Of a stretch of 64,000 nt of DNA, positions 46,084-63,949 are shown piece by piece. Under the pieces are notes generated by a model. That model worked only from the letters and a program-made list of their open reading frames with translations. It did no database searches and was not told the DNA's origin. The position numbers were made by a program, and so were the translations under genes. The stretch is from Poseidonibacter lekithochrous (GTDB lineage Bacteria > Campylobacterota > Campylobacteria > Campylobacterales > Arcobacteraceae): the NCBI RefSeq assembly GCF_013283835.1, contig NZ_CP054052.1, positions 1,302,001 through 1,366,000 of the forward strand, written 5' to 3'. Each line of letters begins with the position of its first letter. The stretch's first letter is position 1.

Positions 46084-47913
46084 CTATACAAAAACTCTCT
46101 TGTTTCCCTCTTTTTTGATGTTTGAGAAGTTATCTAGGTAATCTAAGTATGTAACAATATACTTTCTACTTAATTCATAATGTTCTTTAAAGTTGGCAAT
46201 TTCAATATAACCATCTTGTTTTATTATTTCTTTCATTGAAGCAATAAGTTTATTTAGACTTTCCCCATGAATAAATAGATTATGTTGTAGTCTAATAACT
46301 TGTTTTTTAGATGTTAATGACTTCAAGATATTATCTCCAAGTTTTCTATCTAAGTCTAAATCATCATAAATATTATAAGGAGCCGTGGGAGCTATATCTT
46401 CTTTTTCTAATCTTTGAAGTACAATATTTTCTAGATTTTTAGCAAAATCTTCTTTGATATTTGCATTTTTATATAAATTGTTTTCTTTTACTAAGAAGTT
46501 TTCTTCTTCAAGAATATCAAGTGCAGATTGAATGAAACCTTCACTTGCCCATTTTAGTCTTAGTTTTAATGATGTACTAGAAAGTAGGGCATAAGTATTT
46601 TTTGTATAAATATCTCTAATAAAATCTAAGATTAAATCTTTTGTTTCTATTGGATAGATAATTAATTCTTTCTCATCAATAAATACATTTTCTAAACTTC
46701 TACCAAATTCAATAGCTTGTTCATGAGATAATGCAAATCTTTGAGTTGAAGAGATAAGTCCTAGACCTTTTTTGTGTGCGTTTAATAACTCACGATATGC
46801 TTCTTCAAAATTGTTTTTATCTAAGGCTTCTAATAAAACTCTTTTTTGATTCTTTTTCATAGGATCAACAATAGGGTTTAATACTTTTGCCCCAGCAATA
46901 GTAGCGTTACCTTGTCTTAAAATGATTTTTTCACCAAATACACTATATAGGTTTTCATCTGCTTTAATCGTAGCAAAACCTTTTTCTAAACTAGTAGTTG
47001 AATCAAAAAGTAGTACTTTTACTTCAATTTTTTTAGAACCTATGAACATAGTATAGTTTTTGTTATGTTGTAAAGTTTTTTCTTTTAGAGCGCAAAAAGA
47101 GATATCAATCATATCAAAACCTCTTAAGTAACCTTTTTTTGTAATAAGATCACCTTTTTTGATATTAGAAGCATTGATTCCTTGAAGATTAATAGCAGCT
47201 CTATTTGAGATATTTGCTTCAATTACATTTTCATTATGTACTTGAATGTTCTTGATTTTACTCTCTTTTTGTGCATCACAAATAAATACTTTTTCATTTA
47301 GCTCACACATATGTCCTAGAACTGTTCCAGTTACAACTGTACCAATACCTTTTGGTGAGAATACTCTATCTACGTAGTATCTAAAGAAGTTTTCTTCTTG
47401 TTTTGAAGAGTTTTTAATAGTAAATAATTTGTCTTTTAATCTCTCAATTGATTTTTCATCATAAACAGAAACTGCTTGTAAGAATTTGATATCAAAGTCA
47501 TATTCACTTAAGAAGTTAAGAATATTTTGTTCTTGCTCTTTTAGCTCTTCTTCTGTAACTAAATCTTTTTTTGTAATAGTTACAATAATATCTTTTAACC
47601 CAAGAAGATTAATAATCTCAATATGCTCAACAGTCTGAGGTTTAATACCCTCGGCAGCACTAATTACAAGCATTACATAATCAAATCCAAATGCTCCTGC
47701 AATCATATTTTTTACAAGTTTTTCATGTCCTGGTACATCAATAAAAGCGATATTTTGTTGACCTTTTGAAAGATTAGAAAAAGATAAATCAATTGTTATA
47801 CCTCTTTGTTTCTCTTCATTTGTACTATCACCTTCATATCCATTCAAAGCTTTAATAAGAGCTGTTTTACCGTGGTCAATATGACCTGCTGTTCCAATAA
47901 TAATATTTGACAT
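46084..47913 (-). CDS. selB: Selenocysteine-specific elongation factor
   Basis: Brings Sec-tRNA(Sec) to the ribosome at UGA codons followed by a SECIS hairpin. The 609-residue length equals the E. coli protein (614). The GTPase has GTAGHIDHGKTALIKAL (G1), GITIDLSFS (G2), DVPGHE (G3) and TKKDL (G4). EF-Tu-like domains 2-3 follow (FSPKGIGTVVTGTV), then the C-terminal winged-helix repeats that grip the SECIS. It starts at the last base of the selA stop (TAATG), so it is translationally coupled to selA. Confidence 0.97.
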   Translation of the reverse strand: MSNIIIGTAGHIDHGKTALIKALNGYEGDSTNEEKQRGITIDLSFSNLSKGQQNIAFIDVPGHEKLVKNMIAGAFGFDYVMLVISAAEGIKPQTVEHIEIINLLGLKDIIVTITKKDLVTEEELKEQEQNILNFLSEYDFDIKFLQAVSVYDEKSIERLKDKLFTIKNSSKQEENFFRYYVDRVFSPKGIGTVVTGTVLGHMCELNEKVFICDAQKESKIKNIQVHNENVIEANISNRAAINLQGINASNIKKGDLITKKGYLRGFDMIDISFCALKEKTLQHNKNYTMFIGSKKIEVKVLLFDSTTSLEKGFATIKADENLYSVFGEKIILRQGNATIAGAKVLNPIVDPMKKNQKRVLLEALDKNNFEEAYRELLNAHKKGLGLISSTQRFALSHEQAIEFGRSLENVFIDEKELIIYPIETKDLILDFIRDIYTKNTYALLSSTSLKLRLKWASEGFIQSALDILEEENFLVKENNLYKNANIKEDFAKNLENIVLQRLEKEDIAPTAPYNIYDDLDLDRKLGDNILKSLTSKKQVIRLQHNLFIHGESLNKLIASMKEIIKQDGYIEIANFKEHYELSRKYIVTYLDYLDNFSNIKKEGNKRVFV

Positions 47914-49259
47914 TAGTTAAACACTCCTCTTATAATTGTTTCTATTTCTTTAATTTCTGATTCATTGATACTTCTAAAGTCTATTAGTACTTTTTCACTC
48001 TCAATTCTAACGATTAGATTCTTCGCTCTTAATAGTTGTTCAATCTTATTTGGTTTATAGTTTTTATACTCTAAACTTAATGCAACTGTTGGTATTTTCT
48101 TATTTGGAGTAGTTCCTCCGCCAATTAGTGATTGAGTGTGTATCACTTCACATTTACAAAGGTCTTGGATATTTTCTTTTAATAAGAATGCTCTTTTTTC
48201 TAAAACTTCTGTTTTTTCAAATAACATTTTTAATGTTGGAATATCTTCTATTTCACCTTTTAGGTATGAAGTTAGATTATCTTCTAGTAAGGCTAGAGTA
48301 ATTTTATCAACTCTTAGCATTCTTAATAATTGGTTCTTTTTAATCTTAGCAATTAATTCTTTTTTCCCTACAATTATTCCAGCTTGTACACTTCCTAGAA
48401 GTTTATCTCCTGAGAATGATAATAGTGATGGTTTATGTTCCATATATTTTAAAAGTGATGGTTCTGCTAAATCAAGATTGTATGGTAAGTCAATCATATG
48501 ACCGCTTCCCATATCGTAGTAGTCAATTACATTGTTATCATTTGCTACTTTGATAATATCTTCATATAAAACCTCTGAAGTAAAACCTTCAATAGAGTAG
48601 TTTGATTTATGAACTTTCATAAGCATAGATGTATTTTCATTTATAGCGTTTTCATAATCTCTTAAATGAGTTTTATTAGTTGTTCCAATCTCTTTTAGGT
48701 TTGCACCACTTTGAGTCATTACTTCTGGAACTCTAAAACTTCCACCAATCTCTACAAGTTCACCACGACTTACTACTACTTCTTTGTTTTTAGCAAAAGT
48801 ATTAAGTATTAGAAATACAGCACTTGCATTATTGTTTACAACAATAGCATCCTCACAACCAGTTAAGGATTGAAGAGTATCAACTATATGAGAGTATCTC
48901 TCTCCTCTTTTTCCCTCTTTAAGAGAGTATTCAAGATTGTTGTATGAAGTTGCAACTTCTTTTACCCTATCAAAACTTTCAGGATTGATAAGAGATCGTC
49001 CTAAGTTTGTATGTACAATAATTCCAGTTGCGTTGATTACTTTTTGTAATGATGGAGAATTTATTTGATTATATTGTTTTAATACTTGTTCTATTAATTC
49101 ATCGTATGTGAAATTTTCACATTCTTTATTTAATATATTTGTTCTAGTATTATTTATAACATCCTTTGCAATAGCCGTAATTAAAGGCTTTGCGCATGCT
49201 TCAAAAGCTTTGTCATTGACAAACTTGTCCACTTTTGGAAGGCTCTTCAGTAAATTCAT
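47913..49259 (-). CDS. selA: L-seryl-tRNA(Sec) selenium transferase
   Basis: PLP enzyme that converts Ser-tRNA(Sec) to Sec-tRNA(Sec) using selenophosphate. Family blocks are NATGIIVHTNLGRSLI, NNNASAVFL, YDMGSGHMIDL and the PLP lysine in SFSGDKLLGSVQAG. I set the start at the ATG at 49259 (MNLLKSLPKV), giving 448 aa, because AGGG lies 7 bases before it. The frame stays open a further 96 bases upstream, but that would run antisense through tRNA-Sec and has no ribosome site. Operon with selB; divergent from selC, with only about 57 bases between them. Confidence 0.97.
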   Translation of the reverse strand: MNLLKSLPKVDKFVNDKAFEACAKPLITAIAKDVINNTRTNILNKECENFTYDELIEQVLKQYNQINSPSLQKVINATGIIVHTNLGRSLINPESFDRVKEVATSYNNLEYSLKEGKRGERYSHIVDTLQSLTGCEDAIVVNNNASAVFLILNTFAKNKEVVVSRGELVEIGGSFRVPEVMTQSGANLKEIGTTNKTHLRDYENAINENTSMLMKVHKSNYSIEGFTSEVLYEDIIKVANDNNVIDYYDMGSGHMIDLPYNLDLAEPSLLKYMEHKPSLLSFSGDKLLGSVQAGIIVGKKELIAKIKKNQLLRMLRVDKITLALLEDNLTSYLKGEIEDIPTLKMLFEKTEVLEKRAFLLKENIQDLCKCEVIHTQSLIGGGTTPNKKIPTVALSLEYKNYKPNKIEQLLRAKNLIVRIESEKVLIDFRSINESEIKEIETIIRGVFN

Positions 49260-49295
49260 ATTTACCCTTTCAGATTCTTTTAAAAATATTTTGTG

Positions 49296-49301
49296 TAAGA
49301 T
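49296..49301 (+). promoter_or_regulatory. Possible -10 hexamer of selC
   Basis: TAAGAT about 16 bases before the tRNA-Sec 5' end. The selA and selC promoters must both fit in this short divergent gap. Confidence 0.35.
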
Positions 49302-49316
49302 TTCACTCTTCTTAAA

Positions 49317-49416
49317 CGGGGGGTATGTGATCCTGGTGGACACCGCAGGCTTCAACCCTGATCGGCGGTTTTTGTGTAAACGCCGCGGTAGGTTCGATTC
49401 CTACACCTTCTCGCCA
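49317..49416 (+). tRNA. selC: tRNA-Sec (TCA), selC
   Basis: About 100 bases including encoded GCCA. The anticodon TCA (49352-49354) lies in loop CTTCAAC on a CAGG/CCTG stem, and there is a long variable arm (GGCG...CGCC). The T arm GTAGG-TTCGATT-CCTAC is followed directly by an 8-base 3' acceptor strand, ACCTTCTC, as in 8+5 bacterial tRNA-Sec. The 5' strand is G-rich (CGGGGGGT), so the acceptor helix relies on three G.T pairs and leaves the terminal pair as C.C if the helix is 8 bp. The 5' end could instead be 49318. The D arm GTGATCC/GGACAC has a bulged A. Identity is firm; exact ends are not. Confidence 0.88.
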
Positions 49417-50431: not shown

Positions 50432-50457
50432 ATATTATAGTTAGTGAACTATAATAT
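50432..50457. terminator. Bidirectional terminator between the DUF695-like gene and selD
   Basis: Perfect 11-bp stem, ATATTATAGTT / AACTATAATAT, loop AGTG. It is followed by CTTTTG on the plus strand and by TTCTTTTTG on the minus strand, and overlaps the selD stop. Confidence 0.8.
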
Positions 50458-51478
50458 CTTTTGCTCCTTTTGGAATAACTTCTCCAATAACTGAAGCATA
50501 TCCGAAAGTTAAATCTTCTATCTCTTTTATATACTCTTTAGCATCATTTTTATCCATAGCAATTAATAAACCACCTGATGTCTGAGCATCACATAATAAT
50601 GATTTACAATAGTTGGATAAGTTATTCATATATAATACTTTATCTTCTAGATATTTAATATTTTTCTTTGTTCCACCAGGAATTACATCATCATTAGATA
50701 ATGATATAGCTTCCTCAATAATAGGAACACTTTGACATTCAATCATCATTGAAGTCAATTCATTTGTACACTCTAAGGCATGACCTAATAATCCAAATCC
50801 AGTAATATCTGTACAAGAACTAATATCATATTTTCTCATGATTTTAGATGGAAGATAGTTTAGTGCTTCCATAATATCTGCACAATGTTTCATTAATTCA
50901 ATTGGTAATAAATCTCTTTTTATAGCTGTAGTTAAAATCCCCATTCCAATTGGTTTTGTAAGAACTAAAACATGACCTATTTGGGCAGTATTGTTTCTTA
51001 CTATTTCATTTGGATGAATCATTCCAGTTACAGATAAACCATAATACATTTCAGGTGATTCAATAGTATGTCCACCTAAAAGTAAACCTCCACACTCTTT
51101 GATTTTTTCATTTCCACCATTTAGGATTTCTCCTAATGCTTCATAAGATAGGTTCTTTTTGTCAAAACCTACAATATTTAATGCTGTTTTTACTTCTGCA
51201 CCCATTGCAAAAACATCAGATAATGAGTTTGCAGCAGCAATTTTTCCATAAATATATGGATCATCAATAACAGGAGTAATAAAATCTAAAGTTTGTACCA
51301 TTGCTTGTTCATCATTAATTTGATAAACACTAGCGTCTTCGGCCGTATCAAAGCCAACTAAAATTCTGCTATCTGTTGGAGTTAAGTTGCAAATTGTTTG
51401 TTTCAAGTCCCCCGGACCCATTTTTGCGGCTCACCCAGCAGCTTTAACGAATTTAGTTAGTTTATATTCGTTATTCAT
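50441..51478 (-). CDS. selD: Selenide, water dikinase containing selenocysteine
   Basis: Makes selenophosphate, the selenium donor for SelA, from selenide and ATP. The full protein is 345 aa and starts at the ATG at 51478 (MNNEYKLTKF), with AAGGA before it. Codon 16 is an in-frame TGA (51431-51433) in the context AAG-U-AAKMGPGDL, exactly where E. coli SelD has its catalytic Cys17; the catalytic Lys follows at 19. This is therefore a selenoprotein, and a conventional gene call beginning at the ATG after the TGA loses the active site. Other family blocks are LVGFDTAEDASVYQ, ANSLSDVFAMGAEV, LLGGHTIES, CTDITGFGLLGHAL and CDAQTSGGLL. The SECIS hairpin lies just after the UGA. All its helpers (selA, selB, selC) are within the window. 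Confidence 0.96.
51405..51433 (-). promoter_or_regulatory. UGA(Sec) codon and SECIS hairpin of selD
   Basis: TGA at 51431-51433 is followed by a GC-rich hairpin at about 51405-51419: GGGTCC against GGACTT with a G-rich apical loop about 20 bases after the UGA. This is the distance and loop type of bacterial SECIS elements read by SelB. It is one of the few GC-rich spots in this AT-rich stretch. Confidence 0.8.
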
Positions 51479-51758: not shown

Positions 51759-53873
51759 ATGAGTCTCCAGAGTAAATTAATAGCAATTGCATCCTTATCA
51801 ATTATAATAATTTGTTTTCTCGGAATCAAAATAGTTGAAGATTCTTATGACAATTACAAACGTGCTCTAAGTATTGAAGAAATGATTGATTTATCTGATG
51901 ATATTTCTCACTTAGTACATGAAATGCAAAAAGAAAGAGGTCTTTCAGCTGCATTCATTATCTCTGGTGCAGATGTTTTTAGAGAAAGACTTGTTAATCA
52001 AAGAGTAAAAACAACAAAAGTATTCAAAGAATTTGAACATGTTTTTTATAAAAACATTGATTCTTACGATAATGAAATAAAAGAAAGAATAAAAAAAATA
52101 TTATCAATGTATAAAGATAATATTGATTTAAAAAGAATGTTAATCATAAATGAATCAATTGATGTTTTTGAAGTAATAGACTTTTTTACGAAGATAAATG
52201 ATGAATTTTTAAGTAATCTTTTATATCTATCCAAAATATCAAATAATCCAGAAATTACAAATGATTTAATTGCTTTTAACAATTTACTTCTATTAAAAGA
52301 TAGATTAGGACTTGAGAGAGCTATAGGTTCTATTGTTTTAGTTTGGAACTTTTCTGATGAATCTATATTTAGGTTCAAAGAAGTTGCAACCTCAATAGAA
52401 ATTTATAAAGACAATTTTTATTTTTATTTATCCCTCGAAAATAGACAATACTTCAAGGAAAAAATACAAAGCAGTAAGTTAGCTTATGTTGATGAGTTAA
52501 TAGAAAAGTTTATAAATTGGAATGGTAGAGATAATATAGATATTAGACCTATGTATTGGTTTGATAGTACTACAAAAAAAATAAATTTTTATCAAGAACA
52601 AAATTTATTTTTTATAAAACAACTAAAAAAAGATGTTTTTAATTATAAAAATAAATCAAAATCTGAACTAATTCTTTTATCAATTATTATGATTTCTTCA
52701 ATTTTAATTTTTACAATTTTTACATATTTGACGCAAAAAAGAATTTTAAAATCATTACATAACTTTAAAATTGGTTTATTATCATTCTTTGATTATTTAA
52801 ACCAAAAAAGTGAAAAAATCGAGGTTCTTAATGAGTCTACTAATGATGAATTTGCATCTATGTCAAAGATTGTTAATAAGAATATAGAAACAACTAAGAA
52901 AAATCTTGATGAAGATAAAGCTGTATTAAATGAAGCTATTGTAATTATAAAAGAGTTTGAAAAAGGTAATTTACACCAAAGATTAACAAGTGAAATATCA
53001 AATCCAATTTTAAATGAACTAAAAAATATCCTAAATCAAATGGCTAACAATTTAGAGTTAACAATTGAAGAATTACAACATACAAATGAAGAGTATGAAG
53101 TATCATTAGATAATTTAAAAAAGACACAAACACAATTAATTGAATCAGAAAAAATGGCAAGTTTAGGTGGATTAGTTGCTGGAGTAGCACACGAAATAAA
53201 TACTCCTGTAGGTATTGGTATTACAGGAAGTAGCCATTTCCTAGAGATGACTGATAAACTAAAAAAGTTATATGATAGTGATAATATGGGAGAAGATGAT
53301 TTTGAAGATTATCTAAATAGTTCTGTTGATTTAGCAAAACTAATTAATCTAAACTTATCAAAAGCAGCAGAATTAGTAAAAAGTTTTAAACAAATTGCTG
53401 TAGACCAAACTAGTGAAGAAAAAAGAACTTTTGCCTTAGAAAAGTATCTAAACGAGCTTTTATTAAGTATTGGAAATGTTTTAAAAAGAACAGAACTAGA
53501 AGTAGATATTCAGTGTGATTCAAATATTAAGATCTATTCTTATCCTGGTCTTTTATCTCAAATAATTACAAACTTGATAATGAATTCAATAATTCATGGT
53601 TATGATGAGATAAAACAAGGAAAAATAATTATAGATATAAAAGTAATAGATGAAAACTTAGTTATTAGCTATAAAGATGATGGTAAAGGTATTCCAAGTG
53701 AGAATCTACTTAAGATTTTTGATCCTTTTTTCACTACAAATAGAGAAAATGGTGGAAGTGGTTTAGGTTTAAATATAATATATAATATAATAACTAAACA
53801 ATTAAACGGAACGATAAAATGTAAAAGTAATGAACCTGTAGGTACAGAATTTTTAATTACTTTTAAAATATAA
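51759..53873 (+). CDS. Histidine kinase with NIT-type sensor
   Basis: A 704-residue membrane kinase. Helices at about 5-23 and 303-323 enclose a mostly helical periplasmic domain of NIT type (nitrate/nitrite-sensing family PF08376), recognised by LVHEMQKERGLSAAFIISGAD and the following R.....V....F pattern. A HAMP-like region and coiled coil precede the phosphoacceptor box GVAHEINTPVGIG near 476 and an ATPase domain (NLIMNSIIHGY, DDGKGIP, GSGLGLNI). It is followed after 14 bases by a REC-PAS-HD-GYP gene, its likely output. Nitrate sensing is known for some NIT domains; here the ligand could be nitrate, nitrite or another oxyanion, and its location beside selD makes a selenium oxyanion worth testing. 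Confidence 0.9.
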   Translation: MSLQSKLIAIASLSIIIICFLGIKIVEDSYDNYKRALSIEEMIDLSDDISHLVHEMQKERGLSAAFIISGADVFRERLVNQRVKTTKVFKEFEHVFYKNIDSYDNEIKERIKKILSMYKDNIDLKRMLIINESIDVFEVIDFFTKINDEFLSNLLYLSKISNNPEITNDLIAFNNLLLLKDRLGLERAIGSIVLVWNFSDESIFRFKEVATSIEIYKDNFYFYLSLENRQYFKEKIQSSKLAYVDELIEKFINWNGRDNIDIRPMYWFDSTTKKINFYQEQNLFFIKQLKKDVFNYKNKSKSELILLSIIMISSILIFTIFTYLTQKRILKSLHNFKIGLLSFFDYLNQKSEKIEVLNESTNDEFASMSKIVNKNIETTKKNLDEDKAVLNEAIVIIKEFEKGNLHQRLTSEISNPILNELKNILNQMANNLELTIEELQHTNEEYEVSLDNLKKTQTQLIESEKMASLGGLVAGVAHEINTPVGIGITGSSHFLEMTDKLKKLYDSDNMGEDDFEDYLNSSVDLAKLINLNLSKAAELVKSFKQIAVDQTSEEKRTFALEKYLNELLLSIGNVLKRTELEVDIQCDSNIKIYSYPGLLSQIITNLIMNSIIHGYDEIKQGKIIIDIKVIDENLVISYKDDGKGIPSENLLKIFDPFFTTNRENGGSGLGLNIIYNIITKQLNGTIKCKSNEPVGTEFLITFKI

Positions 53874-53887
53874 AATAGGAATAAATT

Positions 53888-55384
53888 ATGGGAAATATGA
53901 AATTCTCTAATAAAAATAAAATTTTAAATGATAATGCAGAAAAATGGAAAATCTTAATATCCGACGATGAAGAAGATGTTCATTTACTTACAAAAACTGT
54001 ATTAAAGAACTTTGAATATAAAAACAAACAATTAGAATTTATCAGCGCTTATAGTGGAAAAGATACTGTAGAAATATTAAAAGAAAATGATGATATTGTG
54101 TTAGTTCTATTAGATGTTATTATGGAAAATGATCATGCAGGATTAGAAGTAGTAAAACGAATAAGAGAAGAATTATGCAATGATTTTATCCAAATAATAT
54201 TACGTACAGGGCAATCTGGACAAGTACTAGAAGATGATGTAGTTATGAACTATGCAATTAATGATTATAAAGAAAAAACTGAATTAACATCTCAAAAACT
54301 TCTAACTACAATTACTACATCTATTCGTTCTTTTGAAAACATGAAAAATATAAAAAAACTAAACCATGAATTAGGTGGTTTATTATCTATTTATGATGAA
54401 TTTGTAATTGCCGCAAGAACTAATAAAGAAGGTGAAATTGTTTATGTTACAGAAGCATTTTGTGAACTTACTGGTTACACAAAAGAAGAACTTATTGGAA
54501 ATACTCATTCTCTATTAAAAAGTTCTAATACTGCACAAGAAGTATACGATGACTTATGGAATACAATTAGTTCTGGTAATGTTTGGAAAGGTGAAATTCA
54601 AGATAAAAGGAAAGATGGTAGTTTATACTGGTTATCAACTATTATTTCACCTGAATATGATGTTGAAGGAAACTTTTTATATTACACTGCAATTTCTCAA
54701 AATATTACAGAAAAAAAAGCTATTGAAAAAGCTAAAATTGAAATGGAATTAGCAAATAAAGAAATAGAATCTTTAAATGAAGAGATAATTGATACTCAAA
54801 AAGATGTTGTTTTCAGACTAGGAGCTATTGCCGAAGCTAGAAGTAAAGAAACAGGAATGCATGTAAAAAGAGTTGCAGAGTACTCAAAACTTTTAGCTTT
54901 ATACTCTGGTTTGAGTGAAGAAGAAGCTGATATTATAAAAATGGCAAGTCCAATGCATGATATTGGAAAAGTAGCAATTCCTGATAATATTTTGAATAAA
55001 CCAGGAAAATTTACAGATGAAGAGTTTGAAATTATGAAAACTCATGCTCAGATTGGTTATGAGATGTTAAAATCATCTCCAAAAACAATTTTAAAAGCAG
55101 CAGCTATAATTGCTCATCAGCATCAAGAAAAGTACGATGGTAGCGGATATCCTCAGAATTTAAAAGGTGAAGATATACATATATATGGTAGAATCACAGC
55201 ATTAGCAGATGTTTTTGATGCTTTAGGAAGTGAACGAGTATATAAGAGCGCTTGGAGTGATGAAGAAATATTTAAACTATTTAAAGAGCAAAGAGCTAAA
55301 CATTTTGATCCTAAATTAATAGATATTTTCTTTGAGCATCTAGATGAATTTTTAGATATTAGGGATACATTCGTGGACCAATAG
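53888..55384 (+). CDS. REC-PAS-HD-GYP response regulator
   Basis: A 498-residue output protein. The receiver (about 18-145) has ISDDEEDVH, D in LLDVIMEND near 75, T in LRTGQ and K in YKEKTEL. PAS (about 163-285) resembles Aer-type PAS (HSLLKSSN). A long helix leads to HD-GYP: MHDIGKVAIPD near 356 and HQEKYDGSGYP near 417, all signature residues present, so c-di-GMP hydrolysis is expected. It lies 14 bases after the NIT kinase gene. A paralogue with the same layout follows at 60777. Confidence 0.92.
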   Translation: MGNMKFSNKNKILNDNAEKWKILISDDEEDVHLLTKTVLKNFEYKNKQLEFISAYSGKDTVEILKENDDIVLVLLDVIMENDHAGLEVVKRIREELCNDFIQIILRTGQSGQVLEDDVVMNYAINDYKEKTELTSQKLLTTITTSIRSFENMKNIKKLNHELGGLLSIYDEFVIAARTNKEGEIVYVTEAFCELTGYTKEELIGNTHSLLKSSNTAQEVYDDLWNTISSGNVWKGEIQDKRKDGSLYWLSTIISPEYDVEGNFLYYTAISQNITEKKAIEKAKIEMELANKEIESLNEEIIDTQKDVVFRLGAIAEARSKETGMHVKRVAEYSKLLALYSGLSEEEADIIKMASPMHDIGKVAIPDNILNKPGKFTDEEFEIMKTHAQIGYEMLKSSPKTILKAAAIIAHQHQEKYDGSGYPQNLKGEDIHIYGRITALADVFDALGSERVYKSAWSDEEIFKLFKEQRAKHFDPKLIDIFFEHLDEFLDIRDTFVDQ

Positions 55385-55406: not shown

Positions 55407-58400
55407 ATGAGAATTATAAATTTCTTAATAATATTTTTGTTTATGCTAAATACTTTATTTGCAGAAGAGAAAAAAATAAAGATAGCTATTGTAAAAGATA
55501 TGTTTCCATACTCATTTATTGATGATGGAGGCTTTGTTCATGGTATCTTTGTTGATTATTGGAAACAATGGGCTAAAAAAAACAATAAAGAAATAGAATT
55601 TCTTGCTTACTCAAAAGAAGACTCTATTACTGCTTTAGATGAAGAAAAAGTAGATATTCATTCTGGTTTATTTAAAGACATAAACTTATCTCAAAAATTA
55701 GATTTTATTAATATTGTATACCCCTCTCAATCTTTTGTATATTTTGATTCAAGGTTTATAAATAAAATAAAAAGTATTAATGATATTAAAAATAAAAACA
55801 TTGGATTACTTAAAAACAATAAATATGAAGCATATCTAAAAAAAAACTTTCCAAATACAAAAATAAAAAAATATGAAACTCACAAGAAATTATATAAAGC
55901 TTTAGATTTACATGAGATAGATTTATTTATTAATGATTCTTTAGAAGTATGGTTTCAACTAATAAATAATTACAACTTTAATAAAGTATCAAAATTAGAT
56001 GATTTTAAATTGCAAAATTGGTTTTATTGGGCAATTAAAAAAGATAATCTTAAATTAAAAGAAGTTCTAAAAAATAGCACAAAAGAGGTTTCTTTAAGTG
56101 AGATAATTGATATTGAAAAAAAATGGATTGTAGATGATTCTTTTAGATATTTTGAGAAAAAACAAAAAAGTGATTTTCTAAATGCTAAAGAGCGAGAATG
56201 GTTAAAAAATAATTCAAATCTTAGTTTAGCGGTTGTAAAAGATTGGGATAGATATAGTTCTATTTCATCTTTAGGTGTTGTGGAAGGATTCCATATTGAT
56301 TTGATTAATAAAATTAATAAAATTTTAAATAGTCAAATAAAAATAAAGGTTTTAGACACTTGGTCCAAAGCATATGATTCTGTTATCACAGGCGAAACAT
56401 CAGGAATCCCAGGGCTATCATGGTCTAAGAATAGAGAAGAAATTTTTAATTTCACACCTTCTTATTATTATAGCCCTTACTTTATTGTTACTAGAAAGAG
56501 TAATAGAACAATAAAAAGTTTAAAAGATTTTAATAGTCATAAAGTTGCAACCTTCGAGAATTCTATTACTAATCTTATAATTAAAAAAGATGCACCAAAT
56601 GCCAATATTATGCACATTAACAGTATAAAGGGAATTCTAAAAGGAATAAATGAAGGAATTGTAGATGTGGCATTACTTGAGAATGCTAAAGTTATTGATT
56701 TAAATAAATACAATTTAAAAATTATTGATTCTATTTACAGTAAATATAGTGAGTTATCAATTGGTACATTAAAAAAGAATGAAATATTTAGTTCTATTCT
56801 TTCTAAAGCAATAAATAAAATAAGCCCAGATGAACTCTATTCTTTAAAACAAAAATGGTTAAAAAATAAGAAGAATTTTTCAAAAGAAGAAGTTTCTTTT
56901 ATTAATAACTCTAAAACTCTAAAAGTAGGAGTTGAAGATTGGACTGCAATTATTGGAATGAAGAATAATAAGGTGGAAGGAATTGCTGGAGAGATTGTTA
57001 TGAAGGCTTTTTCTAATTCAGGCTTAAAGTTTGAGTATATAAGAGGCACTTGGGATGAGTTGTTGGACTCATTTAAAAAAGGTAATATTGATATTTTACC
57101 TACGACTTTATATACAAAACAAAGAGATAAATATGGTGATTTTTCAAAACAATACTTATCCCTAAAAAACTATATTTATGTGAGATCAGATAATAAAAGT
57201 GTTAAATCTTTAAGTGATTTAAATAATAAGAAAATTGCAATTCAAAAAGATTTTGCAACAATTACTTTAATAAAAGAGAAGTTTCCTAATATAAATATTA
57301 TTGAAACAAAAGATTTAGAGGAGTCTATTCAATTTGTTCTTAATAATGAAGTTGATGCCTTATTTGAAATTCAAGTCTCAGTAGAGAGTAAATTAAGAGA
57401 ATTTCTAATCACTAATTTAAAACCTATTTCTCAAAATAGTATTAAATCTAAGGGCTTACATATTTTTATGAAAGAAGATAAAGATCTATTAAAAAGTATT
57501 TTAAATAAATCTTTGGACACAGTATCAGAAGTAGAGCGAAATCAAATCATATCAAAATGGTTAAATAAAGTAAATGTAAAAAAAGAGATAAATATTGCAT
57601 TAACGACAGAAAAAGCTCCTTATGTTTTAAGTGAGAAATATATAAGAGGAATTGAATATGATTTACTTAAAAAAATATTTGATTTAAACTCAATCAAAAT
57701 TAATAGAGTAAGAAAATTCCTAACACCAAAGATGAATACAGTTTTATTGCAGAATAATGATTTAGATTTAGCAGTTAATGTTAAAGAGAATAAAAAAGAT
57801 GGACTATTCTATTCTAAGCCTTTTATAGAGTTTAAAAATATTATTGTTTCAAGAAAAAAGGATAATATCCAAATTAATAAAGTAAGTGATTTATACAATA
57901 AAAAAGTTATTGCATTTTCTAATGCTCATAAGTATTTAGGAAAAGAGTACTTCACTTTATTTAATCTACAAAATAGACCTAGAAACTATAAAGAGTACGT
58001 TTTTCAAGATTATCAAGTAAAAGAGTTTTTAAATAAGAAAGCAGATTTGATTATCTTAGATGAAAATATATTCAAATGGCATTTTAATAAATTATCAAAA
58101 GATAAACTATCTGAATATAATTTTAATTATCTTTTATCAAAACCAAATAAATATAAAGTTGCTTTTCATAATCGGAATTTAAGAGATTTATTTAATCAAA
58201 ATCTTAAAATAATTAAAGAAAATGGTGATTATAAAGAGATAGTTGAAAACTATATTGAAGGTTATATTGAATCAAAATTAAAAATAAACTTTTTAATATC
58301 TTCTTTAGTTAGTAAATCTATTTTTGATGATAATCATATTGATTTAGAAAAAATTCTTAGTATATTTACTTCTTTACCATATATTGAAAAAATCGAAGTT

Positions 58401-60755
58401 TTTAATAATAAAGATATGTTAATATCAGAAGATTTTGAAATTGAAAGTACTAAGTTTACTCAACAAGATAGTTACTATCTAACTAATGACTTACCTCAAA
58501 AAGTAGGTTATATAAAAGTATATTTTAATAATAAGCTTTTAAAAAAACATAAAGACAATCACTCTTTTATTCCTCAAATAGATATATTTAGCGATCTTAA
58601 TGCTTATGAATATATATTAAGTGTTTATAAAAGATTTGGTTATATAAATAAAAGAATTAATTTTGATACTGATGAACTTTCTTTTCTAGAAAAGAAGAGA
58701 GTTCTTAAATTTTCAAGCTCCCATTGGCAACCTTTATCTATAACAGAAAATGATAAACATGATGGTTTATTTTCTGATTATCTGAAATTAGTTGAAAAAA
58801 GAACAAACCTAAAGTTTGAATATGTCAAAAGTAAAAACTGGTTAGATGTATTAGAAAAGTTTAAGAACAAAGAAATTGACTTAATACCAGGTATTGGAAA
58901 TAAGGCATTTAGTTTTGAGAAAGCTTTTGTTACTAAACCTGTAACTTCTTTTAAATATGCAATTGTTTCAAATAAGAATGAAAACTTTATTGATGGATTA
59001 AAAGATCTAAAAGGTAGAACAGTTGCTGTTCCAAAAGGTTATAGTTCTTATAAATTATTAAAAAGTAGTAATTTAGATATAGATATTATTGAAACAAAAG
59101 ATGAAAAAGAAGCTTTAACTTTAGTTTCAAGAAAAGAAGCTGACGCCTTTGTTGGACATAGTGCAATAGCTATTTATAATATTAAAAACAACTTCCCAGA
59201 GTTAAAAATAGTTGGTTTAACTAATGTGAAATTTTTACATCATTTTTTAGTTCAAGAAGATTACCCAGAATTGCAAAGTATTTTAAATAAAGTTATTACA
59301 AGTATTTCACCAAAAGAAAAACAAGATATAAAATATAAGTGGATTCAAACAGAAGTTTCAACTGCTGTTGATTATTCGGTAATTTATACAATAATTATTA
59401 TCTTTTCTGTAATTTTATTAATTGTTTTAATTTTTACAAGAAAATTATCACAAGCAAAAAAAGAGATTGAATTAAAAAATAAAAAGATTGAAAATACCAT
59501 AGAAACACTAGTAAATACTAAAAATGAATTAATAGCAAAATCAAAAGATTTAGAAGAACAAAAAGAGGCTTTCGAAACACTATTTTATGATGCAACTGAT
59601 GGTCTGAGCTTATTAAAAGATGGAAAGTTTATTGATTGTAATAATGCTGCTTTAAATATTTTAGAGTATAAAGATAAAGAGAAATTCTTAAATCTTGAGC
59701 CCCATGAATTATCACCAGAATATCAACCAGATGGCGAAAAATCAGAGTTTAAAGCTAAAAAACTAATCGAAGAGTGTTTAGAAATTGGTTCAAATAGATT
59801 TGAATGGATTCATCTAAAATCAACTGGTGAAGAAGTTTGGATATCTATACTTCTTACAAAAATTATATTAAATCATGAAACTATGCTTCATGTAGTATGG
59901 AGAGATATTTCTGATAAAAAAATACTTGAAAAACAAATTTTAGATAGAAACAATGAATTAGAAGATGCTAATAATGAACTAGAAATTTCTATTGATAACT
60001 TACAGCAAACACAAGAGCAATTAATTGAATCAGAAAAGATGGCAAGTCTTGGTGCTTTAGTAGCTGGTGTTGCACATGAAATCAATACTCCAATTGGTAT
60101 TGGTTTAACAGGAGCTAGTCATTTCCTAGAAATTTCTAATAAAATAAAAAAATTGTATAAAAATGATAAAATGACTCAGGAAAGTTTTGAAGACTTTTTA
60201 AATACATCAGACGAACTTGCTATTTTAATTAACTCAAATTTGAAAAAAGCGGCAAATTTAGTTAAAAGTTTCAAACAAGTTGCAGTTGATCAAACTAGTG
60301 AAGAAAAAAGAGAATTCTTATTACGTACATATATTGAAGAGATATTAGCAAGTATTCACAGTGTAACAAAAAAGACAAAACTGGATATTTTTATTTCTTG
60401 TGATGATGATATTAAAATAAATAGTTTTCCAGGAGCCATTTCTCAAGTATTAACAAATTTAATTATGAATTCAATTATTCATGGATATGAAAAAAGAGAA
60501 AAAGGTCTTTTATCTATTTATGTAACTAAAGAAGATAATCATATTAAGATACTTTATAAAGACGATGGAAGAGGAATCAAAGAAGAAAATATATCCAAAG
60601 TATTTAACCCATTTTTTACTACAAATAGAGAAAATGGTGGTAGTGGATTAGGCTTAAATATTATATATAATATTGTTACTACAAAACTAAATGGAAAAAT
60701 AACTTGTGAAAATAAAACAAAAGGTGTTGAGTTTATTATAACTTTTGAAGTATAA
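55407..60755 (+). CDS. Giant histidine kinase with five SBP_bac_3 sensor modules
   Basis: A 1782-residue membrane kinase, by far the largest gene here. A signal peptide (1-19) leads to consecutive solute-binding (Venus-flytrap) modules at about 22-250, 261-490, 491-722, 727-950 and 1091-1315. Most end in an alpha-helical KKWI, KQKWL, SKWL or KYKWI element, the usual module end. Modules 1-3 and 5 are clear (for example KVGVEDW, DILPTTLYTKQRDKYG, IDLIPGIG). Module 4 is more diverged, and a non-SBP linker of about 130 residues follows it. A helix (1325-1345), coiled coil, PAS (about 1388-1504), GVAHEINTPIGIG near 1555 and the ATPase domain complete it. From the H box on it is nearly the same as the NIT kinase. 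Partner: the HD-GYP protein 21 bases downstream. Confidence 0.93.
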   Translation: MRIINFLIIFLFMLNTLFAEEKKIKIAIVKDMFPYSFIDDGGFVHGIFVDYWKQWAKKNNKEIEFLAYSKEDSITALDEEKVDIHSGLFKDINLSQKLDFINIVYPSQSFVYFDSRFINKIKSINDIKNKNIGLLKNNKYEAYLKKNFPNTKIKKYETHKKLYKALDLHEIDLFINDSLEVWFQLINNYNFNKVSKLDDFKLQNWFYWAIKKDNLKLKEVLKNSTKEVSLSEIIDIEKKWIVDDSFRYFEKKQKSDFLNAKEREWLKNNSNLSLAVVKDWDRYSSISSLGVVEGFHIDLINKINKILNSQIKIKVLDTWSKAYDSVITGETSGIPGLSWSKNREEIFNFTPSYYYSPYFIVTRKSNRTIKSLKDFNSHKVATFENSITNLIIKKDAPNANIMHINSIKGILKGINEGIVDVALLENAKVIDLNKYNLKIIDSIYSKYSELSIGTLKKNEIFSSILSKAINKISPDELYSLKQKWLKNKKNFSKEEVSFINNSKTLKVGVEDWTAIIGMKNNKVEGIAGEIVMKAFSNSGLKFEYIRGTWDELLDSFKKGNIDILPTTLYTKQRDKYGDFSKQYLSLKNYIYVRSDNKSVKSLSDLNNKKIAIQKDFATITLIKEKFPNINIIETKDLEESIQFVLNNEVDALFEIQVSVESKLREFLITNLKPISQNSIKSKGLHIFMKEDKDLLKSILNKSLDTVSEVERNQIISKWLNKVNVKKEINIALTTEKAPYVLSEKYIRGIEYDLLKKIFDLNSIKINRVRKFLTPKMNTVLLQNNDLDLAVNVKENKKDGLFYSKPFIEFKNIIVSRKKDNIQINKVSDLYNKKVIAFSNAHKYLGKEYFTLFNLQNRPRNYKEYVFQDYQVKEFLNKKADLIILDENIFKWHFNKLSKDKLSEYNFNYLLSKPNKYKVAFHNRNLRDLFNQNLKIIKENGDYKEIVENYIEGYIESKLKINFLISSLVSKSIFDDNHIDLEKILSIFTSLPYIEKIEVFNNKDMLISEDFEIESTKFTQQDSYYLTNDLPQKVGYIKVYFNNKLLKKHKDNHSFIPQIDIFSDLNAYEYILSVYKRFGYINKRINFDTDELSFLEKKRVLKFSSSHWQPLSITENDKHDGLFSDYLKLVEKRTNLKFEYVKSKNWLDVLEKFKNKEIDLIPGIGNKAFSFEKAFVTKPVTSFKYAIVSNKNENFIDGLKDLKGRTVAVPKGYSSYKLLKSSNLDIDIIETKDEKEALTLVSRKEADAFVGHSAIAIYNIKNNFPELKIVGLTNVKFLHHFLVQEDYPELQSILNKVITSISPKEKQDIKYKWIQTEVSTAVDYSVIYTIIIIFSVILLIVLIFTRKLSQAKKEIELKNKKIENTIETLVNTKNELIAKSKDLEEQKEAFETLFYDATDGLSLLKDGKFIDCNNAALNILEYKDKEKFLNLEPHELSPEYQPDGEKSEFKAKKLIEECLEIGSNRFEWIHLKSTGEEVWISILLTKIILNHETMLHVVWRDISDKKILEKQILDRNNELEDANNELEISIDNLQQTQEQLIESEKMASLGALVAGVAHEINTPIGIGLTGASHFLEISNKIKKLYKNDKMTQESFEDFLNTSDELAILINSNLKKAANLVKSFKQVAVDQTSEEKREFLLRTYIEEILASIHSVTKKTKLDIFISCDDDIKINSFPGAISQVLTNLIMNSIIHGYEKREKGLLSIYVTKEDNHIKILYKDDGRGIKEENISKVFNPFFTTNRENGGSGLGLNIIYNIVTTKLNGKITCENKTKGVEFIITFEV

Positions 60756-60776: not shown

Positions 60777-62276
60777 ATGGGAAAATTAAATTTTTACAAA
60801 GCTAATAAAGAAGTTGAAGAGAGCCATGAGACATGGAAGATCTTAATCGCTGACGATGAAGATGATGTTCACTCTCTAACTAAAACAGTATTAAAAAACT
60901 TTGTATATAAAAATAAAAAATTAGAATTTATCAGCACCTATAATGGGGAAGATACAATAAATGCAGTAAAAAATAATGATGATATTGTGCTTATTCTTCT
61001 TGATGTAATTATGGAAAATGATGATACAGGTTTGCAAGTAGTAAAAACAATTAGAGAAGAGTTGAAAAATCAATTTATACAGATTGTTCTTCGTACTGGA
61101 CAAGCAGGATTAGTTCCTGAAACAGAAGTTGTAATGAATTATGCAATTAACGATTATAAAGAAAAAACAGAATTAACTTCAAAAAAACTAATAACTACTA
61201 TTGTTTCTTCTATTAGATCTTATGAAAATATTACAGAGCTTGAAGAGAGTAAATCAAAAATAGAATTACTAAACTATGATTTAAATAAGTTAGTTAATTC
61301 ATTAGATAAGAATGTAATTACATGTAAAGTTAACAAAATAGGAAAACTAATTTATGTTAGTAGAGCTTTTTGTAAAGCTTTTGGATATGAAGAAGATGAA
61401 TTATTAGGACATTCAACTACTTCATTAATCCATGCAACTTTTGATAAAGATAAATTTGAAGAAATTAAACTTGCATATAGAGAATATAAACCTTGGCATG
61501 GGGAAGTGAAGTTTCAAACTAAAAATGGACAAACACTTTGGGCTTATGTTAGAAGAGAAGTAGAGTTAGATGGAAATGGAAACTTCTTAAATTATACAGT
61601 TATCTCACAAGATATTACTGCTCAAAAAGATATGCAAGAAGCAAAAAATGAAATAGAACTTTTAAATGAAGAGATTATTGATACACAAAAAGAAGTTGTA
61701 TTTAGATTAGGTGCTATTGCTGAAGCTAGAAGTAAAGAAACAGGAATGCATGTAAAAAGAGTTGCAGAGTATTCAAAGCTTTTAGCTAGATATTATGGAT
61801 TATCTAGTGAAGAGTGTGAAATTGTAAAACTTGCAAGTCCAATGCATGATATTGGAAAAGTGGCAATTCCTGATAATATATTAAATAAACCAGGAAAGTT
61901 TACACCTGAAGAGTTTGAAATTATGAAGACACATGCTCAAATTGGTTATGAGATGTTAAAAACTTCTAATAAGACAATTTTAAAAGCAGCAGCAATTATT
62001 GCCCACCAACATCAAGAGAAGTTTGATGGTTCAGGTTATCCTCAAGAGTTAAAGGGTGATGGAATTCATATTTATGGACGAATTACAGCTTTAGCTGATG
62101 TATTTGATGCATTAGGTAGTGATAGAGTTTATAAAAAAGCATGGGAAGATGAAGAAATCTTTGATTATTTTAAAGCGCAAAGAGATAAACATTTTGATCC
62201 AATTTTAGTAGATATCTTCTTTAAAAACTTAGATGAATTCCTAATTATTAGAGATAAATTCAAAGATACCTTATAA
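60777..62276 (+). CDS. REC-PAS-HD-GYP response regulator (second copy)
   Basis: A 499-residue paralogue of the protein at 53888, with the same order: receiver (IADDEDDVH, D in LLDVIMENDD), PAS (about 170-290; FCKAFGYEEDELLGHS) and HD-GYP (MHDIGKVAIPD near 358, HQEKFDGSGYP). The receiver and HD-GYP parts are almost identical between copies, while the PAS domain differs strongly (HSTTSLIHATFDKDKF instead of HSLLKSSN). Expected to degrade c-di-GMP on command of the five-module kinase upstream. The final DTL stop is followed by a weak A/T hairpin. Confidence 0.92.
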   Translation: MGKLNFYKANKEVEESHETWKILIADDEDDVHSLTKTVLKNFVYKNKKLEFISTYNGEDTINAVKNNDDIVLILLDVIMENDDTGLQVVKTIREELKNQFIQIVLRTGQAGLVPETEVVMNYAINDYKEKTELTSKKLITTIVSSIRSYENITELEESKSKIELLNYDLNKLVNSLDKNVITCKVNKIGKLIYVSRAFCKAFGYEEDELLGHSTTSLIHATFDKDKFEEIKLAYREYKPWHGEVKFQTKNGQTLWAYVRREVELDGNGNFLNYTVISQDITAQKDMQEAKNEIELLNEEIIDTQKEVVFRLGAIAEARSKETGMHVKRVAEYSKLLARYYGLSSEECEIVKLASPMHDIGKVAIPDNILNKPGKFTPEEFEIMKTHAQIGYEMLKTSNKTILKAAAIIAHQHQEKFDGSGYPQELKGDGIHIYGRITALADVFDALGSDRVYKKAWEDEEIFDYFKAQRDKHFDPILVDIFFKNLDEFLIIRDKFKDTL

Positions 62277-62386: not shown

Positions 62387-62444
62387 TTATCTACATTATT
62401 AACTTTATTTCTTCATTATTGCTTCAAAAAATTTGAGGTTTTTT

Positions 62445-63290
62445 ATGAAAAAAATTCTTTTCACACTATTTGTACTTTCACAAGTACTGTTTTCACAAAC
62501 ATTTACATTTACTGCAATTCCAGATCAAGATGAAACTAAATTAAAAGAGAGATTCTCTAAGTTAGCTGTTTATCTTACTAAAGAATTAGGTGTTGACGTT
62601 AAGTTCGTTCCAGTTAAGTCATACTCTGCATCAGTTGCAGCATTTAGAAACAACCAAGTTCAATTAGCATGGTTTGGTGGATTTTCAGGTGTTAAAGCTA
62701 GAAAATTAGTTAAAGACTCACAAGCAATTGCACAAGGTGTTGAAGATCCAAACTTCTACTCTTATATTATTGCTCATAAAAGTACAGGAATTAACAAAGC
62801 AGAAAAATTATCTGATGCAGTAAAAGGTAAAACTTTTACATTTGGTTCAAAAGGTTCTACTTCTGGTAGATTAATGCCTGAGTATTATATTAGAGAAACT
62901 TTTAATGCTTCTCCAAATGATGTATTTAAAAAAGTTGGTTTTTCAGGAAATCACTCTAAAACAATCTCTTTAGTTCAAAGTGGTGCTTATGAATTAGGTG
63001 CTGTTAACTATAAAGTATGGGATAGAGAATTAAAAGCTGGAAATATTGATACTTCTAAAGTAAAAGTTATTTACAGAACTCCTGATTACTATGATTACAA
63101 CTTTACAATTAGATCTGACGTTGATAAAAACTATGGTGCTGGATTTATTAAAAAAGTACAAAATGCTATCTTAAAACTTGAAGACAAAGAGATTTTAAAT
63201 GCTTTCCCAAGAGCTAAGTTTGTTGAAGCAAAAAACTCTGATTATGACAAAGTTTATGAAACTGCTAAAAAAATTGGATTAATTGACTAA
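62445..63290 (+). CDS. PhnD-like ABC substrate-binding protein, putative selenate family
   Basis: Periplasmic binding protein of 281 aa with a signal peptide (1-18, ending LFSQ). The pattern FTAIPDQDETKLKERF, YLTKELGVDVKFVPVKSYSASVAAF, QLAWFGGFSGVKARK and AIAQGVEDPNFYSY is, from memory, that of the family annotated as putative selenate ABC transporter substrate-binding protein, a branch of the phosphonate/phosphite (PhnD) group often found with selD. I chose the ATG at 62445 because GAGG lies 6 bases before it; a TTG 12 bases upstream overlaps that site. Phosphite or phosphonate remain alternatives, but the local selABCD genes favour selenium. It overlaps the ATPase gene by one base. Confidence 0.85.
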   Translation: MKKILFTLFVLSQVLFSQTFTFTAIPDQDETKLKERFSKLAVYLTKELGVDVKFVPVKSYSASVAAFRNNQVQLAWFGGFSGVKARKLVKDSQAIAQGVEDPNFYSYIIAHKSTGINKAEKLSDAVKGKTFTFGSKGSTSGRLMPEYYIRETFNASPNDVFKKVGFSGNHSKTISLVQSGAYELGAVNYKVWDRELKAGNIDTSKVKVIYRTPDYYDYNFTIRSDVDKNYGAGFIKKVQNAILKLEDKEILNAFPRAKFVEAKNSDYDKVYETAKKIGLID

Positions 63291-63949
63291 TGATTTTTAA
63301 TTTAGAAAATGAAACAATCTCATACGAGAACAATAAAGTTTTAGATTCTATTAACTTATCAATCAAGAAGGGCGAAAAAATTGCTCTTCTTGGGTCAAGT
63401 GGTAGTGGGAAATCTACATTACTTAAAAGATTATATGAATTAAAAAGCGAAGAGGTATCTTATTTACCTCAAGATTTAGGTTTAGTAAATAATCTTTCTT
63501 CATATCACAATATCTATACTTCTAAACTTCAAAATAATTCAACGATTTATAATTTAGTAAATCTAATAAAACCATTTAAAAAAGAGTTAAATGAAGTTAC
63601 AAAGATTTTAAAAGAGCTTGAAATAGATGATAAGCTTTTAACAAAGTCTTTTAACTTATCAGGTGGACAAAAACAAAGAGTTTCAATTGCAAAATCAATC
63701 TACTCAGGTAAAAATATACTTTTAGCAGATGAACCAATTTCTGCATTAGATGAGTATATTTGTAAAAAGTCTATTGATATTATGCATAATTCTTTTGATA
63801 CTATTATTTGTGCAATGCACAATGTAGATTTAGCACTAGAGTCTTTCTCTAGAGTTATTGGTATTAAAAATGGAGAAATATTACTTGATAAACAAACTTG
63901 TGACATTACTAAAGATGATGTGAGTAGGCTTTATTATGTTACTACTTAA
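63290..63949 (+). CDS. ABC transporter ATP-binding protein, putative selenate/phosphonate type
   Basis: ATPase subunit, 219 aa. Walker A is LLGSSGSGKSTLL, the signature is NLSGGQKQRVSIAKS, Walker B is ILLADEPISALDE, and the switch histidine lies in CAMHNVD. The N terminus (NETISYENNKVLDSINLSIKKGEK) is PhnC-like; the protein is a little shorter than PhnC. Coupled by TAATG to the binding protein and overlapping the permease gene by 14 bases. Confidence 0.92.
   Translation: MIFNLENETISYENNKVLDSINLSIKKGEKIALLGSSGSGKSTLLKRLYELKSEEVSYLPQDLGLVNNLSSYHNIYTSKLQNNSTIYNLVNLIKPFKKELNEVTKILKELEIDDKLLTKSFNLSGGQKQRVSIAKSIYSGKNILLADEPISALDEYICKKSIDIMHNSFDTIICAMHNVDLALESFSRVIGIKNGEILLDKQTCDITKDDVSRLYYVTT

Follow-up and report, generated by a model that had tools for sequence, protein, structure and literature searches.

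The closest described systems are BvgS of Bordetella (4q0c) and EvgS of E. coli (9ilw). BvgS combines two tandem flytrap (VFT) modules with a single transmembrane (TM) helix, a PAS domain, a kinase and a C-terminal receiver-HPt phosphorelay, and it acts with a DNA-binding partner. EvgS has the same type of periplasmic module and the same order, VFT-TM-PAS-HK, again with two VFTs, a phosphorelay and a DNA-binding partner, EvgA. Domain make-up varies within the BvgS family; the number of VFT domains in BvgS homologs ranges from one to five, and tandem arrays of three, four and five have been discussed (PMC4352136). Kinases with two VFTs numbered more than 8,000 in 2018 (PMC5829827). How three to five flytraps in a BvgS-type chain are read out jointly was raised as a question in a 2015 structure paper (PMC4352136). 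Sensors of the CdgH and RmcA type (5gzs, 7ejg) couple periplasmic SBP_bac_3 modules to c-di-GMP turnover, as the system described here would, but their GGDEF/EAL output is in the same chain, whereas ours is a two-component relay to an HD-GYP regulator.

The five-VFT protein is a BvgS-type kinase, complete in its domains, from a small subfamily of narrow taxonomic distribution. Its gene lies in a 64,000-nucleotide stretch of the Poseidonibacter lekithochrous genome, here called the window, as an intact open reading frame on the + strand (55407-60755; 1782 open codons, 1782 aa), and all features of the kinase given below are on that strand. Pfam found five SBP_bac_3 stretches (E=5.3e-62 for the whole protein) together with a single PAS domain; HATPase_c was matched clearly and HisKA weakly. 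A hydropathy scan identified a hydrophobic N-terminus as the signal sequence (residues 1-19, 55407..55463), followed by VFT1 (residues 20-250, 55464..56156), VFT2 (residues 262-488, 56190..56870), VFT3 (residues 495-722, 56889..57572), VFT4 (residues 724-955, 57576..58271), a segment without SBP similarity that we call INS (residues 956-1083, 58272..58655) and the membrane-proximal VFT5 (residues 1084-1318, 58656..59360). Behind this array are a TM helix (approximately residues 1324-1345, 59376..59441; hydropathy maximum 3.3), a cytoplasmic PAS domain (residues 1385-1508, 59559..59930; PAS_9 E=5.3e-11 at 1403-1503) and a histidine kinase, which is the BvgS-type layout. The DHp/HisKA region (residues 1548-1610, 60048..60236) has an intact phospho-acceptor motif, AHEINTP, and a HisKA score of 17.3 bits, under the Pfam cut-off of 26.9. 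The HATPase_c domain (residues 1677-1780, 60435..60746; E=4.3e-18) has its N, G1, F and G2 boxes.

The kinase differs from BvgS and EvgS in both sensor and output. It has five VFTs, with INS between VFT4 and VFT5. It ends after HATPase_c, at residue 1782, and lacks the C-terminal receiver-HPt phosphorelay of BvgS, and its probable partner is an HD-GYP regulator and not a DNA-binding protein. Against the EvgS equivalog NF007420 it scored 115.6 bits, compared to a curated cut-off of 1995.

All five modules are recognizable individually. An earlier note on this DNA had described five diverged SBP_bac_3 modules over about 1300 residues, with a non-SBP insert of about 130 residues between the fourth and fifth. 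Each module was cut out and scored singly, and VFT1 to VFT5 gave 47.4, 56.1, 65.1, 40.1 and 48.8 bits, all above the Pfam SBP_bac_3 cut-off of 26.4. The modules lie within residues 20-1318, the insert is 128 residues long and Pfam-negative, and the pairwise identity among the modules is only 21-29%, so this description held in each respect, as did the coordinates of the open reading frame.

We assessed the flytrap fold of VFT1, VFT4 and VFT5 from sequence profiles and that of VFT2 and VFT3 from matches of a predicted structure. Profiles built from relatives were compared with solved structures. The VFT1 profile matched solved solute-binding structures over its full length (E=1.3e-28), and that of VFT4, the most divergent module, with a long branch in the module tree, matched GlnPQ SBD2 over positions 3-229 (E=9.9e-14). 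The VFT5 profile matched residues 328-558 of the BvgS chain, which are its membrane-proximal VFT (E=1.5e-48), and the EvgS structure 9ilw (E=1.6e-43); judged by these profiles, VFT5 is specifically BvgS/EvgS-like. VFT5 is also matched by Pfam Phosphonate-bd, the family of the neighboring transporter protein. Periplasmic-binding families cross-match, and we therefore discounted this match as evidence. The earlier note had proposed a flytrap count by structure prediction, which was achieved in part. In an AlphaFold model of modules 1-3 (pLDDT 58.5, a middling value), the VFT2 region resembled BvgS VFT2 (Z 15) and the VFT3 region resembled GlnBP structures (Z about 13.9), but module 1 was poorly modelled and the model of VFT4-INS-VFT5, built from five aligned sequences, reached a pLDDT of only 35.7.

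The number of modules is not in itself new. Other sensor-like open reading frames in the same genome have one to three SBP_bac_3 modules, and five is at the upper end of the published range of one to five for BvgS homologs (PMC4352136), so we rejected module number alone as a novelty. The view in the earlier note that the arrangement is unusual therefore fails for the count itself; less usual than the count are a core kept in all relatives mapped, a probable HD-GYP output and the synteny with a putative selenate transporter. What is new here is the subfamily around the kinase. With its extra conserved domain, fixed module order and recurrent place next to a putative selenium-uptake operon, the kinase is an uncommon and presumably multi-input variant.

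INS had no convincing match among the domains it was compared with. The segment gave no meaningful score against any Pfam family; 13 sequences of it were aligned, with 36-80% identity to the window. Profile comparisons of INS with VFT4 and with the cytoplasmic PAS domain gave nothing, and we rejected both a degenerate VFT and a PAS domain as candidates. Matches among solved structures, at E=0.39 and worse, were taken as chance. A first comparison with CHASE8, a periplasmic sensor domain, gave a probability of 70%, using an alignment that included a sequence found with INS itself. Once that sequence was removed, the weak resemblance of the first half of INS to CHASE8 had a probability of 19%, less than the 33% that a control comparison with VFT5 gave, and we did not file INS as CHASE8.

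VFT4-INS-VFT5 is the constant core of the subfamily. It was found in the window protein and in 12 relatives, while VFT1, VFT2 or VFT3 may be missing, and five, four and three modules occur among the 12 relatives that were mapped. INS was present in 7 of 104 genomes of the window's family, across three Arcobacteraceae-like genera; two further weak matches in that sample look like chance. The order sample contained two more genomes that carry INS clearly and a third that does so less clearly, and no additional INS genomes were found in the phylum sample. The nearest ortholog of the kinase, from Arcobacter sp. UBA7394, is 84% identical and has the same gene order. Since members with five, four and three modules share one core, the role of each module is testable by comparison.

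The modules are old and specialized. Modules at the same position in different proteins are mutual closest relatives by wide margins, and each of the five positions is a clade in the module tree (support 99-100%), with the final modules of other kinases placed beside VFT5. Since each position forms its own clade, the modules were distinct before these genera split. Recent duplication was rejected on the basis of these separate clades and the low identity between positions.

Residues in the ligand pockets differ by module position. In amino-acid-binding SBPs, two pocket residues hold the alpha-carboxylate and alpha-amino groups of the ligand, and we compared the corresponding positions across relatives in sequence alignments. 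VFT1 has the Arg in 7 of 9 relatives and the Asp in 8 of 9, with the Arg lost in the window protein. VFT2 and VFT3 keep only the carboxylate-holding Arg (11/11 and 12/12 relatives, respectively), VFT4 keeps only the Asp, and VFT5 has neither residue. The clear divergence of the modules makes different ligands plausible, and these position-specific residues would fit that view. It is also possible, although we consider it somewhat improbable, that only one or two of the five VFTs sense ligands, the majority binding nothing and serving as spacers or mechanical levers. BvgS is a precedent, as nicotinate acts through its VFT2, and the absence of the amino-acid pair from VFT4 and VFT5, the loss of the VFT1 Arg in the window lineage and the dispensability of distal modules in relatives all fit such a role. 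VFT1 is also the fastest-evolving module (69.7% identity and dN/dS 0.27 relative to the nearest ortholog). However, each position has its own conserved pocket residues, and all five modules are under purifying selection (dN/dS 0.08-0.27 against the nearest ortholog). We infer that the kinase senses several ligands. By analogy to BvgS, ligands at several different VFTs, or their absence, would alter how the periplasmic chain is packed, and the fixed core VFT4-INS-VFT5 would pass the net signal through the one TM helix, the PAS domain and a coiled coil to the kinase.

The most likely output of the kinase is an HD-GYP regulator. The probable cognate regulator, with REC, PAS and HD-GYP domains, is encoded 21 bases downstream (60777..62276, + strand). 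Directly preceding the kinase is a paralogous pair transcribed in the same direction, so that two pairs of kinase and REC-PAS-HD-GYP regulator stand in a row. The upstream kinase (51759..53873, + strand) has a NIT sensor domain of the nitrate/nitrite type (E=4.4e-32), and its kinase half is 63% identical to that of the five-VFT kinase; its paired regulator is at 53888..55384 (+ strand). In many relatives the kinase gene is likewise followed by a REC-HD-GYP gene, and in two genomes of another family (G345 and G252) a single protein joins the sensor half, VFT2-VFT3-VFT4-INS-VFT5, directly to PAS-HD-GYP. Because the regulator gene adjoins the kinase gene and the sensor half occurs naturally fused to PAS-HD-GYP, the output most likely belongs to the c-di-GMP branch. 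The kinase would phosphorylate the adjacent regulator and thereby tune that branch. Overall, we consider it probable that this BvgS-type kinase takes in several inputs and passes them on to an HD-GYP regulator, a judgment that leaves selenium aside. The subfamily offers a second comparison, between a kinase and a direct HD-GYP output on the same sensor.

The phosphodiesterase activity of both regulators in the window is doubtful. The HD_5 profile matched the regulator strongly, but the adjacent regulator lacks the full canonical set of metal ligands, HD plus HHExxDGxGYP. The adjacent regulator keeps HDIGK, and both window regulators have HQE instead of HHE in HHExxDGxGYP, with Gln replacing the second His. 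In PmGH, alanine at the equivalent His (H277) essentially abolished activity (PMC4159591), and it is for this reason that we doubt the activity. Regulators of the transporter-linked relatives also have HQE, whereas HHE is retained in the fused forms and at the seven further HD-GYP sites that could be read in the window's genome. This distribution, together with the effect of H277A, would suit a regulator that is not a working phosphodiesterase and is instead a platform, controlled by phosphorylation, that binds c-di-GMP or a protein. We think such a platform unlikely, as the other visible metal-ligand motifs (ETGxH and HD) are present and Gln might still ligate metal.

The signaling cassette lies between selD and a putative selenate transporter. 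To our knowledge, signaling of selenium as a trace nutrient is poorly described. On the left of the cassette are selB, selA, tRNA-Sec and selD, all named from sequence, with selD (selenophosphate synthetase; 50441..51421, - strand) at the border. The called TTG start of selA (47913-49412) lies inside the opposite-strand tRNA-Sec gene (49318-49412), and the actual start codon is probably internal to the called frame. On the right are a putative selenate ABC transporter substrate-binding protein (62433..63290, + strand), which scored 387.8 bits against a cut-off of 250 for TIGR04553, a hypothetical equivalog as a selenate assignment, and the ATPase of the same operon (63290..63949, + strand; Pfam ABC_tran E=1.6e-22). 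In 8 of 8 congeners that lack the kinase, selD lies immediately next to the transporter and is divergent from it, and in the window the four-gene cassette occupies exactly the gap between them. All 7 family genomes with INS have the kinase-regulator pair immediately upstream of the TIGR04553 transporter (G000, G095, G036, G087 and G088, and as contig-end fragments in G089 and G090). Of the other 20 family genomes in which TIGR04553 scored above the cut-off, none has it there. This synteny spans only three genera, with copies related by descent or transfer.

The synteny speaks for linkage and does not point to a particular ligand. Based on it, we tentatively suggest that at least one input may be tied to selenium availability or to what the neighboring transporter carries, and we lean somewhat against this link ourselves. 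If it is true, the kinase would be part of a sensory system for a trace nutrient. Two papers on selenium utilization (PMC5029168 and PMC4607533) are silent on such a sensor, and their silence is no proof of absence. A serious possibility, just short of evenly balanced, is a general nutrient sensor for amino acids or organic acids that signals to HD-GYP, its position between selD and the transporter reflecting an insertion site or hitch-hiking and no selenium function. SBP_bac_3 modules are mostly amino-acid binders, VFT2 and VFT3 keep the carboxylate-holding Arg, and congeners have selD next to the transporter without any kinase. On the other hand, the adjacency that is repeated across three genera is to the transporter and not only to selD; it includes G087 and G088, where selD was not seen beside the transporter. 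Other subfamily copies in G087 and G088 do not adjoin the transporter, so not every member of the subfamily need have a selenium role, and these copies too would suit a general nutrient sensor. That INS is a new domain type within a string of up to five flytraps, and that the whole constitutes an undescribed class of receptor that brings selenium and other nutrient signals to c-di-GMP control, we regard as improbable.

Several subfamily members had other arrangements. In G087, kinases occur as tandem pairs at L076:4279-14311 (1751 and 1556 aa) and L078:2936-12721 (1635 and 1623 aa), and the second kinase of the latter pair is cut by the contig end. A further G087 member, at L081:4796-9107, is split into a sensor-PAS open reading frame of 1008 aa and a PAS-kinase open reading frame of 426 aa, while its G088 counterpart (L080) is a single protein of 1668 aa; the split is either a natural break or an assembly error. 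In more distant genomes (L099:4806-8270 and L100:2-1972), a VFT4-like module, a segment of INS length and VFT5-like modules are arranged differently, which hints at a core that predates the subfamily and extends beyond it.
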